Under the pieces are notes generated by a model that saw nothing but the letters and a program-made list of their open reading frames with translations, had not been told where the DNA came from and did no database searches. This document shows positions 37,069-41,345 of a DNA stretch of 43,097 nt, piece by piece (within the stretch, counting starts at the first letter, position 1; each line of letters starts with the position of its first letter). The translations under genes and the position numbers were made by a program. This DNA is from an uncultured Luminiphilus sp. (GTDB taxonomy: Bacteria > Pseudomonadota > Gammaproteobacteria > Pseudomonadales > Halieaceae), in the NCBI GenBank assembly GCA_938084055.1, contig CALKDK010000028.1, forward strand, positions 1 through 43,097, given 5' to 3'.

Positions 37069-37087
37069 CATACCCTGTTAGGGTATG
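37069..37087 (+). promoter_or_regulatory. CsoR-type operator of the metal cassette
   Basis: CATACCCTGTTAGGGTATG is a perfect 7-bp inverted repeat with a 5-nt centre, of the TACCC...GGGTA type bound by CsoR-family repressors. It ends four bases before the csoR ATG. A possible promoter TTGCAC-N17-TAGGGT (37056-37084) would place the -10 inside the right arm, so binding would block RNA polymerase, and its start would fall near the ATG. AGGG in the right arm could instead serve as ribosome site. Confidence 0.75.
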
Positions 37088-37091
37088 CTAT

Positions 37092-37367
37092 ATGAAATCA
37101 AAAACCAAAAAACTCGCCGACCAACGCCTTGCCCGCATTGAAGGACAGGTCCGTGCAGTCCGTCGCCTCGTGGAAGAAGACCAGTACTGTGTCAACGTCG
37201 TCCGTCAGGTGCAGGCAGCACGATCAGCGCTCTCCAGCCTGGAAACCCTGATTATCGAAGACCATGTAGATACCTGCGTTGAAAAGGCGCTGGCCAAGGG
37301 GTCGGTCAGCGAACGACGCGAAAAAGTGACCGAACTGGTAGATATTCTTACCGGCAAGAAAAAGTGA
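37092..37367 (+). CDS. CsoR-family metal-sensing repressor (copper type)
   Basis: 91 aa, all helical DUF156 fold, DNA-binding without a helix-turn-helix. LARIEGQVRAVRRLVEED is the family signature. Candidate ligands Cys33, His58 and Cys62 have the 25- and 4-residue spacing of Mycobacterium CsoR (Cys36, His61, Cys65), which binds Cu(I). The N-terminal His of nickel/cobalt RcnR is absent, and the His argues against CstR or FrmR. Copper should release it from the operator just upstream, so it likely represses itself and the three following genes. The stop overlaps the next GTG start by four bases. Confidence 0.9.
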   Translation: MKSKTKKLADQRLARIEGQVRAVRRLVEEDQYCVNVVRQVQAARSALSSLETLIIEDHVDTCVEKALAKGSVSERREKVTELVDILTGKKK

Positions 37368-37999
37368 AGCACCTTCTGTTGGGAGTTCTGGTTTTGATGC
37401 CCTTGGCAGCACTGGCCCGCCCGGTGTCCTACATGGGGGGCTGGACCTTTATTGAGGAATCCAATCGCCAGTCTACTGCCGCGCTGGTGCACTATACGCC
37501 GTCGCCCAAATGGTCCCTGGGCCTCAGAAGTGAATGGGTGCGCGATTCAGATTTTGTTCTGACGGCCATCCAGCCCACCTACCTTGTCAAACGATGGTTC
37601 GGCAAAGACTATCAGGCAAACGTCTACCTGAACGGCGGCTTTGGTGTTGCTTCCGGGATTTCGGGGAACCCCCTCAGTACGACCGCAGCGGGATTCGTCG
37701 GCGTCATGGCAGACTGGGAAACCCGCCGCCTCTTTGCGGGATATACCGCGCGGTACCTGGATGCTGGTCACTTCGATGACTCTGCCATGCAGATCGTCAG
37801 GCTCGGCTGGGCGCCCTACGAGGGCGATACCAACGATCTGCATACCTGGTTAATGCTCGAGGTGGATCAGCGATCGGGTCTTGAAGACTCTGTCTCTGTG
37901 TCCCCGGTACTGCGATTTTTTAAAGGCCCAGCCCTGTTGGAGCTGGGTTTTAATCTAGTAGACCCCTCCCCCCTGATCAACTTCACTTACCGTTTTTAA
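37364..37999 (+). CDS. Outer-membrane beta-barrel-like protein of the metal cassette
   Basis: 211 aa. Signal peptide MKHLLLGVLVLMPLAALA, cleaved before Arg19. The mature protein alternates hydrophobic and polar residues with many aromatics (WSLGLRSEWVRD, FAGYTARYLDAGHF, HTWLMLEVDQRSG). It ends in LINFTYRF, a terminal Phe of the kind used for outer-membrane insertion. Its size suits an 8-10 strand barrel. There is no Cys or His cluster, so any metal role would be as a pore or scaffold. I do not recognise a named family. GTG start overlaps csoR, giving strong coupling to the repressor gene. Confidence 0.75.
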   Translation: MKHLLLGVLVLMPLAALARPVSYMGGWTFIEESNRQSTAALVHYTPSPKWSLGLRSEWVRDSDFVLTAIQPTYLVKRWFGKDYQANVYLNGGFGVASGISGNPLSTTAAGFVGVMADWETRRLFAGYTARYLDAGHFDDSAMQIVRLGWAPYEGDTNDLHTWLMLEVDQRSGLEDSVSVSPVLRFFKGPALLELGFNLVDPSPLINFTYRF

Positions 38000-38014
38000 C
38001 CTGGAGATTTCAGA

Positions 38015-38494
38015 ATGACTTCATTCTCCCGCGCACTACCGCTCTGCGTGATCATGATGACCACCACGGCGGCCCACGCTCAGCACGACCAACATGGTGG
38101 TCATGATCAGCACGACCAACATGGCGGGCATGATCAGCACGAAGCACATGACCATAGTGATATGGCGTCCAGTCCGCAGGACAACGCCGCACCCACCGGC
38201 GCTGTGCCCATGTCAACAACACCGGAATTGGAGGCCGCTTTGGCGGCGGGTGGAACACCCGTGGTCGCGGAGGTCCTGGGGGTTGTCTGTGATTTCTGTG
38301 CCACGGCGATGAACAAGATTTTTGGCTCCAGGGAGGAGGTGGCAGCGGTTTATGTCGATCTTGATACCAAGGCCCTGAATCTTGTCCTGAAGAAGGGTCA
38401 CAACCTCGACGACCAGACGATTGAGGAGCTTGCCGTTCAGGCCGGCTATCGTATTGCCGCGGTTTATCGAGACCCAGTGCTGCAGGGGGGTTGA
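38015..38494 (+). CDS. Secreted His-rich protein with HMA-like CxxC domain
   Basis: 159 aa. Signal peptide ends near Ala22 (TTAAHA), leaving a mature N-terminus with tandem QHDQHGGHD units and further His-Asp pairs up to about residue 48, a strong candidate metal-binding tail. After an Ala/Pro linker, residues about 83-153 resemble a heavy-metal-associated domain: VVAEVLGVVCDFCATAMNKI with Cys92 and Cys95, then VAAVYVDLDTKALNLVLKKG and an AGYRIAAVYRD end. The layout recalls MerP or a periplasmic copper chaperone. Followed two bases later by the MerT-like gene. Confidence 0.8.
   Translation: MTSFSRALPLCVIMMTTTAAHAQHDQHGGHDQHDQHGGHDQHEAHDHSDMASSPQDNAAPTGAVPMSTTPELEAALAAGGTPVVAEVLGVVCDFCATAMNKIFGSREEVAAVYVDLDTKALNLVLKKGHNLDDQTIEELAVQAGYRIAAVYRDPVLQGG
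38081..38155 (+). repeat. 27-bp tandem repeat encoding the His-rich tail
   Basis: Two copies of a 27-bp unit (38081-38107 and 38108-38134), differing at only two positions, and a third, partial and diverged copy to about 38155. Each full unit encodes QHDQHGGHD. Near-identity at the DNA level suggests recent duplication, so copy number may vary between strains. Confidence 0.9.
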
Positions 38495-38496
38495 GT

Positions 38497-38877
38497 ATGC
38501 AGGGTAACTGGCGCGACGGGGTTGCACCCACGCTGGCACTTTTTACCAGCGCATCAACACTCGTGTGTTGTGCGTTACCCGCGCTGCTAATTTCTATCGG
38601 TGCCGGTGCGGTGATGGCAGGCCTCACCGCAACTCTGCCGGGCATCATGTGGCTGTCAGCCCACAAGGGCCCCCTCTTTATTTTCTCAGGCTTGATGCTA
38701 TTGGGGTGTGCCGTGTTGGTATGGCGACAACGTCACAGCCCCTGTCCCCTCGATCCCGGGCAGGCTGCCGCCTGCATGCGACTGCGACGCTACAATGCAT
38801 GGACACTGGTCATAGCAGCGGCCACACTCGTCACGGGTATTTTCTTCGCCTATCTCTGGCCGCTGATTTACCTGTGA
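38497..38877 (+). CDS. MerT-like inner-membrane protein
   Basis: 126 aa, three predicted membrane helices. Helix 1 carries adjacent Cys24-Cys25 (STLVCCALPALL), as in MerT. A loop between helices 2 and 3 carries Cys83 and Cys93 (SPCPLDPGQAAACM), matching MerT's second cysteine pair. Helix 3 is AWTLVIAAATLVTGIFFAYLW. In mercury systems MerT receives Hg(II) from MerP and passes it inward. Here the neighbour is a CsoR repressor, and no MerR or mercuric reductase is visible, so the metal is probably copper or another thiophilic ion. Start: ATG 38497 behind a GGGGGG ribosome site; TTG at 38491 is less likely. Confidence 0.75.
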   Translation: MQGNWRDGVAPTLALFTSASTLVCCALPALLISIGAGAVMAGLTATLPGIMWLSAHKGPLFIFSGLMLLGCAVLVWRQRHSPCPLDPGQAAACMRLRRYNAWTLVIAAATLVTGIFFAYLWPLIYL

Positions 38878-38982: not shown

Positions 38983-39693
38983 TCATCGCCATTTGTTGGG
39001 GAGCGAAACAAAAAGTGCAATGCCGGCCACGGCAGTGAGTAGCGCAAGCACAGAGAAAATCTTGAGCAGCACCGTGCCTATCGTATCCCGATCGTCATAA
39101 TCCATAATGTGCAGTGACCAAAGGAAATCCCACCACCGCCACGCGGTGTTGCGGATGGCGACCACCTCGCCAGATACGGCATCGATGTAAGCCACAGTCG
39201 TAGGGTGAGACTCATTGAAAACGCGCCATAAGGGTAGCGTGCGTCCCCGGTATTCTGACCCCAACTGCGCCTCGCTTACCCAAACGGCCCGGTCAGGGTC
39301 GAGATCCGTCGCGGCAGCCCCTATGCTCAGTGCCTGCGCAGCTGTGAGATCAGCAAGCGACCCGCCGCTCTGCTCATACCAGTTTGTATTATCAGGTCCG
39401 ACCACACCCACTACGAGCTCGCCGGGCAGTCTGTGACGTAAAACAATCCTGGCGCCGTTATCTGTCACCCAGTCAACCTTGGAGAGGTCAAATTCAACAG
39501 CCGCCGGAACCTCAAGGCGATCACTGCCCCGAACAAAATTGATATCGACAAAGGCAAAAAAAATACCGCTCAAGGTCCAGAGAAGGAGCTGGATGGCAGT
39601 GACCAGGGCGAGCCAGCGATGCCATCTGCGAAACTTACGCTGCGTGGCGAGACCGATTTTCGGTGCGAAATGTGAGAATAAAGGTAGCGCCAT
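38983..39693 (-). CDS. PepSY-type membrane protein
   Basis: About 236 aa. N-terminal membrane helix after a basic segment (RKFRRWHRWLALVTAIQLLLW then TLSGIFFAF), a periplasmic domain, a further WRWWDFLWSLHIMDYDDRD segment, and a C-terminal helix (IFSVLALLTAVAGIALFV). The RRWHRWLAL start and the DAVSGEVVAI...LHIMDY region fit PepSY-associated membrane proteins, a group common beside iron or copper uptake genes. The ATG at 39693 lies 59 bases inside the 3' end of the histidine kinase gene, in another frame, and its ribosome site is poor. The two probably form one transcript. Confidence 0.72.
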   Translation of the reverse strand: MALPLFSHFAPKIGLATQRKFRRWHRWLALVTAIQLLLWTLSGIFFAFVDINFVRGSDRLEVPAAVEFDLSKVDWVTDNGARIVLRHRLPGELVVGVVGPDNTNWYEQSGGSLADLTAAQALSIGAAATDLDPDRAVWVSEAQLGSEYRGRTLPLWRVFNESHPTTVAYIDAVSGEVVAIRNTAWRWWDFLWSLHIMDYDDRDTIGTVLLKIFSVLALLTAVAGIALFVSLPNKWR

Positions 39694-41062
39694 GAGACGA
39701 AGATTCCAGTTCGAGAGAGCCTCCAAACTCCGCCACTATACCGCGACTGACTGAGAGACCAAGGCCCGTGCCCTTGCCCACTTCCTTGGTTGTATAGAAG
39801 GGTTGGAATATCGAACTTTGTATGTCCTCGGGAACACCGGGGCCGTTGTCAGATATCCTTAATCTCACCGTATCACCTAAATCTCTTAGGGTTATTGCTA
39901 TGCGCGGTTGGGCAATGCCCTCAGCCAGAACATCCCGGGCATTGGCCAACAGATTCAGGATTACCTGCTCCAGCTGGATCGGATGACCCATGACGTAAAT
40001 TTTATCTTCGGGCAGGTGCAGGTCCACTGCGATACCCGCACCAATAAATTGATTACTGACCAAATCCACGGCGCTGTTGATGGCTTCATTGATATCAACA
40101 GCTGTTGGTGGCTCCTTGGCATTGCGACCAAAACGCCGGAGATGATCAATGATTTTCCGCGCCCTATCCAACGCGACCATCGCACGTGAGGTTTTCTCGG
40201 TCAGAAAGTCCCTGTCCGGGGCATCATTAACCTCAAGGTGTCGTTGCATATTATCCGCAGTGAGTTGAATTGCAGCCAGCGGTTGATTGATCTCATGAGC
40301 CAGTGATGTCGCCAGCTCCCCCAGCAGAGCGAGTTTGGAGGCCTGGATGGCCTGGGCCTGATAGGTCTTCAGAGGGGAAATATCGTGAAACATCAAGGCT
40401 AACTGCCCATTCTCCAGGCGCTGGGCGTGTAGCTGATAAAACCGTCCATCAGTAAAGCGCAGCTCCAGCGACCCGCGAGTACTACCACGGCTTGAAATCG
40501 GGCCGTCCAGCCAGGTTTTGATCTCTCCGACCTGACCGGAGGTAGGTAAGCCATAGAGCACTCCCTGCAAGTCCATAGCATCCAGATCCCCGCTGTCGCT
40601 TTTCCCCCAAACGTTGATAAAAGCAGCATTGGCAAACGTAAGCCCCCCGTCCTTGGCAAAAATAGCCAGTCCCACACTGAGCTCAGCCAAAACCGTTGCA
40701 AGGGATTCCCGGACCATGGTTAAGCGCGACGTTATCGCCTGGCGGGTTATGAATGCGCAAATAACAATGGTGAGGGCGAACTGCCCCCTGTTCATGTAAA
40801 AAAGAAGCTGGTCAGCTCCTTTCTGATACGTGCCGATACCAAGCAGGAGCAGGGATGCGCTACTCACCCAGATCACCGCGCGGGTTGAGCGCGTCCAATA
40901 ACAGCCCAGAGTGGCAAAAAGATAGGGCAGCACCGTAAATGCCCGCATGGGCCCACTGCTGAGGTCAGACGTTATGGCAAGTAATGGCAGCGCAACGAGT
41001 AGTAGTACCAACAACCTCCCGCCCCAGCTGCTCTCCGGCATCATGCCAGCACCCTGCTGCAT
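39635..41062 (-). CDS. Orphan membrane sensor histidine kinase with PAS domain
   Basis: 475 aa from ATG at 41062 (alternatives ATG 41044 and GTG 41143). Membrane helices within residues 15-110, a PAS domain about 122-232 (VLAELSVGLAIFAKDGGLTF), a linker helix, and the H-box with His256 in SLAHEINQPLAAIQL. Catalytic domain: N box LNLLANARDVL, G1 DNGPGVP, F box FQPFYTTKEVGKG, G2 GTGLGLS. It is like the HEINQPL kinases (NtrB/DctB/FixL relatives). No response regulator is encoded in the window. The gene overlaps the downstream PepSY gene, suggesting a joint role. Signal unknown. Confidence 0.92.
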   Translation of the reverse strand: MQQGAGMMPESSWGGRLLVLLLVALPLLAITSDLSSGPMRAFTVLPYLFATLGCYWTRSTRAVIWVSSASLLLLGIGTYQKGADQLLFYMNRGQFALTIVICAFITRQAITSRLTMVRESLATVLAELSVGLAIFAKDGGLTFANAAFINVWGKSDSGDLDAMDLQGVLYGLPTSGQVGEIKTWLDGPISSRGSTRGSLELRFTDGRFYQLHAQRLENGQLALMFHDISPLKTYQAQAIQASKLALLGELATSLAHEINQPLAAIQLTADNMQRHLEVNDAPDRDFLTEKTSRAMVALDRARKIIDHLRRFGRNAKEPPTAVDINEAINSAVDLVSNQFIGAGIAVDLHLPEDKIYVMGHPIQLEQVILNLLANARDVLAEGIAQPRIAITLRDLGDTVRLRISDNGPGVPEDIQSSIFQPFYTTKEVGKGTGLGLSVSRGIVAEFGGSLELESSSHGATFILTFRTENRSRHAA

Positions 41063-41345
41063 GCCACCGTGGACTTCAGTCGACCCCGTTGGGGGGGCAA
41101 GGGCCTGTTTGCAACAAAGACCATGTAACTTTTCTATACCCACCTAGGTCTGAATAGAGCAGTCAGGGTACCCCCTAGGAGCCACCATCGCTATACAACC
41201 CTAACTGTTTTGTAAAAAATTAAATGTATCGAGTAATAGCCGGTGAACAAAACAGGTAGCATGGTCAGCCAAGGGGCCATTCCCAGCCCCCCGACGCCAC
41301 GGTTCGAAGCCCTGGGGGACTGGCCAACACGAGCCAGGCCCGCGC
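41063..41345. other. Intergenic region upstream of the histidine kinase
   Basis: 283 bases between the kinase gene and the next minus-strand gene. CCTAGG occurs twice (41143-41148 and 41174-41179), 31 bases apart. A 9-bp inverted repeat CTGTTTTGT / ACAAAACAG (41205-41213, 41247-41255) brackets an A/T-rich stretch. No gene is recognised; a short plus-strand frame from 41243 looks like chance. Confidence 0.35.

Follow-up and report, generated by a model that had tools for sequence, protein, structure and literature searches.

MerT is known as an importer, and in mer operons MerT and MerP together import Hg(II). According to one account (PMC7558416), the signal reported by CsoR-type sensors is cytosolic Cu(I). 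The motif 5'-TACX9GTA-3' has been described for CsoR operators (PMC3902906); in Table 1 of the same paper, TACCCCCTAGGGGTA is present in the copZA1 and copZA2 operators of S. lividans, while the sequence in the csoR operator, TACCCCTGGTGGGTA, also conforms to the pattern TACCC-N5-GGGTA. At the outer membrane, PcoB, a part of copper defence, is reported to permit copper import (PMC9210255), and an efflux function is described for the PcoB of Caulobacter (PMC12509749). Here we describe an operon from an uncultured Luminiphilus sp. that combines features of these systems; no description of it was found in the titles and abstract openings of the open-licence PMC papers that literature searches returned.

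The operon and its CsoR-type operator

The window, which is the whole stretch of 43,097 bases that was analysed, contains four same-strand genes behind one perfect inverted repeat: csoR, a barrel gene, an HMA gene, and a MerT-like gene. The repeat, CATACCC-TGTTA-GGGTATG (37069-37087), has the form TAC-X9-GTA and ends 4 nt upstream of the csoR ATG. Its inner part, ATACCC-N5-GGGTAT (37070-37086), was the only match in the window with one mismatch or fewer, compared with 0.04 expected from shuffles, and a chance operator was ruled out on these figures. The csoR gene occupies 37092-37367 (+), and its stop shares 4 nt with the beginning of the barrel gene (37364-37999, +), which has GTG as start codon; the HMA gene (38015-38494, +) follows after 15 nt, and the MerT-like gene (38497-38877, +) after a further 2 nt. 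The same 4-nt overlap of csoR and barrel gene was found in 17 of the 25 other genus loci in which both genes were called, with starts chosen automatically, the rest ranging from a 1-nt overlap to a 26-nt gap. Gene reading and a Pfam scan found neither a reductase nor a P-type ATPase in the operon, and no sigma-70 promoter match was found. This arrangement, including the tight spacing, the perfect operator, and the missing reductase and ATPase, is as the first-pass annotation had described it from the sequence.

CsoR alone among the four proteins passed a Pfam cut-off (PF02583, 85.7 bits; cut-off 22.8); the barrel, HMA, and MerT-like proteins pass neither a Pfam nor an NCBIfam cut-off. The csoR product, the single PF02583 match of its own genome, aligns with M. 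tuberculosis CsoR and with other CsoR structures, and carries the previously noted Cys33, His58, and Cys62, which would serve as Cu(I) ligands in a copper-type repressor, with Tyr32 before Cys33. The signature YC-x24-H-x3-C was kept in 27 of 27 distinct CsoRs.

The strict pattern TACCC-N5-GGGTA was located upstream of csoR in 23 of 25 testable genomes of the genus (27 have the four-gene locus; L026 and L028 were left out). Eighteen of these sites were seen directly and five through longer DNA of the same genomes: L019, L024, L025, and L029 through L038, L034, L033, and L036, and L031 through G006. No strict operator was found in L005 or L015, where 120 and 61 bases were examined, respectively. 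In four more genomes of the genus (G003, G049, G054, and G056), csoR is likewise preceded by a site, or by two. The operator variant in L016, L032, and L033 is TACCCCCTAGGGGTA, as in the S. lividans copZA operators. Outside the genus, a site stands before the barrel gene in L050, where csoR is divergent, and in L041, where csoR is last in the row; no strict operator was found in L035, which has csoR, or in L037, L039, L049, and L051. Elsewhere in the genomes, CsoR-like sites were about as numerous as controls in the five genomes counted (control 1-5 per genome). Eight non-operon sites were inspected, leaving out one in G030: three were inside genes and five were intergenic, and two of the latter recurred in genome pairs (L106/L108 and L103/L105). 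One recurrent site lies before a protease-like gene and the other between aminotransferase-like and hydrolase-like genes, all named by eye.

Conservation within the genus and beyond

Of 97 relatives searched for the MerT-like protein, 36 gave a match, comprising 34 of 57 genomes of the genus (own included), none of four from other genera of the family, and two of 36 from the rest of the order. Most of the genomes compared are incomplete (own genome 82.75% complete), and the 23 genomes of the genus in which the gene is missing include at least two where contig ends hide it. The first-pass annotation had staked its reading on the four-gene order recurring in other genomes. Among the 30 genus loci read (30 of the 34 carriers were covered), the order csoR-barrel-HMA-MerT was complete in 27, and the reading survives this preset test. 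The other three loci are cut: L013, without csoR, and L023, without csoR and barrel gene, are at contig ends, and the stretch read of L017 ends short of csoR, with a csoR match just beyond it.

Thirty-seven of the 57 genus genomes contain csoR, one match each, two of them partial, and 33 of the 34 MerT-like carriers have a csoR match. This linkage gave a Fisher p of 2.5e-10 over the 57 genomes, a value that ignores their relatedness. In G044, the one carrier with no csoR match, a contig end interrupts the locus, and in G054 the operon is split across two contigs. Conversely, four csoR genomes gave no MerT-like match: in G049 and G056 csoR is followed by part of a barrel gene, at which the contig ends, in G003 csoR is itself at a contig end, and the fourth is G053. 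The csoR of G053 (L110) is a different one; it diverges from a gene that looks by eye like a multicopper oxidase, with CopB next in line, and the group forms a classical copper set. G053 is the sole genome of the genus whose csoR is clearly unlinked to the operon.

Facing the operon in the window is a gene for a PepSY_TM protein (PF03929, 38.6 bits; cut-off 28.8) at 38983-39726 (-), its start overlapped by a sensor histidine kinase gene at 39635-41143 (-). By tblastn, 28 of 30 genus loci have the PepSY_TM gene next to the MerT-like gene, as do none of nine loci tested outside the genus. The exceptions within the genus are L003 and L018; in L003 a relative of the kinase, on the + strand, adjoins the MerT-like gene. 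The PepSY_TM protein is possibly a membrane redox partner, or its position may be mere inherited neighbourhood.

Phylum-wide, the barrel profile matched four of 398 genomes and the MerT-like profile seven of 398, own included in each, one of the seven being a fragment with a stop. Fourteen places outside the genus were read. Four of them (L035, L037, L039, and L041) were found via the barrel and hence give no test of its linkage; the other ten came from MerT-like searches (G072, G081, G136, G445, G470, G393, G381, two Vibrio plasmids, and one of four Variovorax plasmids), with the MerT-like fragment in G270 left out. Nine of these ten have both HMA and barrel neighbours, and six of the nine barrels are not of the window type. 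Over all 14 places, with calls made largely by eye, an HMA gene adjoins the MerT-like gene in every case and a barrel gene in 13, the Variovorax plasmid being without one. Seven of the 13 barrels are of the window type; the six others (both Vibrio plasmids, G081, G072, G393, and G381) do not necessarily form one family, and one of them, that of L067, passes PF13557. Two HMA proteins of these trios were scanned: that of L066 passes PF00403 and that of L053 gave no HMA match. Regulators also vary, with CsoR in L035, L041, and G470, a MerR-family protein in V. diabolicus and in G081, and an HTH gene in the regulator place in V. alginolyticus. Because the trio recurs with different barrels and regulators, the three envelope parts are likely to work together. 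The first-pass reading is refined in this respect, as trios of these parts also occur apart from the operon described here.

Copper genes adjoin several of the relatives. L051 has a multicopper oxidase and CusF, L052 has CusCBA-like genes (by eye), L047 (a Vibrio plasmid) has a copper island, L037 has a copper-type TonB receptor (E 2e-49, below cut-off), and G445 has a copper ATPase at a distance of about 5 kb from its trio; on the Variovorax plasmid the HMA and MerT-like genes have neither copper genes nor a barrel nearby. Some gene models at these places are irregular. In L046 and L047, both Vibrio plasmids, the annotated HMA gene is too long and in another frame, and the MerT-like gene is hence unannotated; the barrel gene of V. 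alginolyticus (L047) ends early. At L067:1111-1887, a MerT-like domain is in frame with a DsbD-like membrane region (PF13386 above cut-off).

Barrel, HMA, and MerT-like proteins

The barrel protein begins with a signal peptide followed by RPVSYxGGW and ends in Phe, and its model has 12 predicted strands (pLDDT 82.5, pTM 0.76). The early description of a signal-peptide protein with a barrel-like terminal Phe was thus borne out, and the protein probably sits in the outer membrane. It has no Pfam family above cut-off, and PF05275 gave no match at E 1; membership of PcoB/CopB by sequence was rejected on the latter result. The model resembles many 12-stranded barrels, foremost autotransporter domains and KdgM (BrkA 16.7, KdgM 14.8, both above PcoB/CopB). 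Nothing convincing was found when the barrel profile was compared with PDB sequences (best E 0.21), a tblastn search of the plasmid collection with the window barrel gave no match at E 0.01, and the window type matches the other trio barrels weakly (hhalign 72%). In an 11-sequence alignment His43, Asp117, Glu119, Arg121, His160, and Met164 were invariant; strand alternation would place His43, His160, and Met164 towards the lumen. In a second alignment (n=10, three more distant members), Asp117 was still invariant and Glu119 and Arg121 nearly so, while His43, His160, and Met164 were not.

The secreted HMA protein contains two copies of QHDQHGGHD and a CDFC motif, both as first reported. Searched as a single sequence, it matched no Pfam HMA model at E 1, and its NCBIfam matches all stayed below threshold; a 10-sequence profile matches structures of CopA, CopZ, and MerP. 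All 32 distinct relatives examined keep CDFC. The His-rich tail, by contrast, is specific to certain lineages, with the number of His residues before the CxxC falling to 0 in L039 and 4 in L041.

In the MerT-like protein, Cys24-Cys25 lie in helix 1 and Cys83 and Cys93 flank the loop before the last helix. These four cysteines, singled out by the first-pass annotation, proved invariant in a 10-sequence alignment; of the three helices also proposed there, the low-confidence structure model (pLDDT 66.6) gives a hint. Arg residues abound in this loop, which suggests that it is cytosolic. The curated MerT cut-offs were missed (PF02411, 13 bits vs 32.9; NCBIfam MerT, 12.8 vs 150), a PF02411 search of the own genome at E 0.001 gave no match, and the profile found nothing convincing among PDB sequences (best E 0.62). 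Compared directly with a 12-sequence MerT profile, the 10-sequence profile aligned at hhalign 95.8% (E 7e-9), the helix-1 cysteine pair included. Scored with our own script, the two profiles reached 41.4, against at most 19.6 for column shuffles (n=100), 20.5 for the reversed profile, and 25.5 for the best of 100 shuffles that keep the hydrophobic pattern. These profile comparisons support remote kinship with MerT.

Proposed copper handling and comparison with known systems

The copper P-type ATPase model TIGR01511, searched at E 0.001, matched all 14 control genomes (13 above cut-off) and 19 of the 57 genomes of the genus. Nine of the 19 matches were strong (E <1e-70; five above cut-off), and the remaining ten were weak and partial (E 3e-6 to 8e-4) and were taken for other proteins; 48 of 57 genomes thus have no strong match. 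The strong matches fall in four of 34 carriers and five of 23 non-carriers, the latter including at least two cut carriers. With no strong match in 30 of 34 carriers vs 18 of 23 non-carriers, Fisher p was 0.46, and replacement of the ATPase by the operon was rejected as a statistical claim. These data fit a CsoR-controlled role in cells that have no CopA but are no proof of one, since non-carriers of the genus mostly have no strong match either. Of the single-contig carriers, G006 had no match and G030 one weak partial match. Outside the genus, among CsoR-linked genomes, G491 had no match, G470 one weak match (E 2e-4), and G488 a strong one; all six others tested (G445, G136, G489, G490, G081, and G072) had strong matches. 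In the own genome (82.75% complete), no TIGR01511 match was found and no MerA above cut-off (best 325.9 bits vs 454.45). Another pump is possible, as RND-type matches were found in 57 of 57 genomes, in 53 solely below the Czc/Cus cut-off. Czc/Cus pumps above cut-off were found in four genomes (G039, G009, G005, and G045), one a carrier, and CopB above cut-off in one of 57 (G053), with one weak match in G021.

The simplest reading of the operon is a relay released by Cu(I). We give about an even chance to a thiol relay that spans the envelope, is derepressed by Cu(I), and stands where CopZ/CopA would stand; its most likely purpose would be to remove or detoxify copper. Apo-CsoR on the operator before csoR would repress the operon until cytosolic Cu(I), bound by Cys33, His58, and Cys62, released it. 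The MerT-like protein would then pass Cu(I) across the inner membrane, between cytosolic Cys83/Cys93 and intramembrane Cys24-Cys25; the CDFC HMA domain would accept it in the periplasm, where the His-rich tail may act as a buffer, and the 12-stranded barrel would provide for its exit, or exchange, through the outer membrane. Overall, copper would be removed or sequestered without ATP, which is the job of CopZ/CopA in known CsoR regulons, and outward flow would need differences in affinity, oxidation, and dilution outside the cell as its driving forces. Export is preferred to import because no strong TIGR01511 match was found in 30 of 34 carriers, nor in the CsoR-linked G491 and G470. Several observations speak against such a relay or against export: the lack of ATPase matches is not specific to carriers, and strong matches occur in G488 and four carriers of the genus; L035, L005, and L015 have no strict operator; the Variovorax plasmid has parts of the trio without copper genes or barrel; MerT itself is an importer; and the operon encodes no energy source for export. 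A bolder version, in which marine bacteria that have no copper P-type ATPases came to use an ATP-independent Cu(I) export relay spanning three compartments instead of CopZ/CopA under CsoR control, with MerT chemistry running outward, is conceivable but somewhat less probable than its negation.

The same parts could be read the other way round, as controlled uptake with periplasmic trapping: the barrel would admit copper, the His-rich HMA protein would hold it, and the MerT-like protein would move some of it inward, as an unorthodox defence or store. MerT and MerP do import Hg(II) in mer operons, and the His-rich tail suits storage. PcoB has been described both for import (PMC9210255) and, in Caulobacter, for efflux (PMC12509749), so the barrel may work in either direction. 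However, if CsoR-type sensors report cytosolic Cu(I), as stated in PMC7558416, extra import at that point would be harmful, and the operon has no cytosolic detoxifying enzyme; we regard uptake as rather unlikely. Delivery of copper to envelope cuproenzymes (oxidases, for example), under a CsoR that silences the operon at low copper supply, would suit the copper ATPase near the trio in G445 and the copper-type TonB receptor near that of L037. A delivery system would be expected to be on at low copper rather than released by high Cu(I), and 23 of 57 genomes of the genus show no MerT-like gene (in at least two it is hidden by contig ends), which makes this explanation distinctly improbable.

Resistance to Hg or Ag by a MerT/MerP-like route, controlled by a CsoR responsive to these soft metals, would account for the remote MerT kinship and for the regulator of the V. 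diabolicus relative, which scores best against MerR, below cut-off. Hg resistance was rejected as first choice since no MerA above cut-off was found in the genome. The Cu(I) signature of CsoR, the copper genes adjoining several relatives, and the regulator of L052, which scores best against CueR, below cut-off, also stand against this explanation, which we consider very unlikely. Cu(I) is likelier than Hg(II) given an operator core of the S. lividans copZA type, Tyr-Cys/His/Cys in the CsoRs, and the copper-gene neighbours of some relatives. The observations of the first-pass annotation were thus confirmed and its interpretation partly supported: of the proposed MerP/MerT analogue for Cu(I) or another soft metal, the remote kinship to MerT and HMA proteins stood and Cu(I) is a likelier metal than Hg(II), and the scarcity of strong ATPase matches among carriers leans towards the suggested export or sequestration.

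If the operon is the copper system of the 48 of 57 genomes without a strong ATPase match, these bacteria would control copper in the envelope without ATP-driven export. MerT-like proteins would enter copper biology, and three proteins below the Pfam and NCBIfam cut-offs would gain a likely role. The operon also allows a direct test of whether a MerT-type cysteine relay can run outward.

Compared with known systems, the operon is like mer operons in its small membrane protein with a helix-1 cysteine pair and a later pair, and in the periplasmic HMA partner; it is unlike them in having CsoR in place of MerR, no MerA, an added barrel, and a PF02411 score below cut-off. With CsoR-copZA operons it shares a copper-type CsoR, the operator core of S. 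lividans copZA, and an HMA protein as target, but here the HMA protein is secreted and His-rich, and a MerT-like protein takes the place of the P-type ATPase. Unlike Pco/Cop systems with their PcoB/CopB barrel, it has a barrel without PF05275 and no multicopper oxidase. In the trios on the Vibrio plasmids and in G081, G072, G393, and G381, MerT-like, HMA, and barrel genes also lie side by side, although the barrels there are not of the window type and the regulator in V. diabolicus and G081 belongs to the MerR family.
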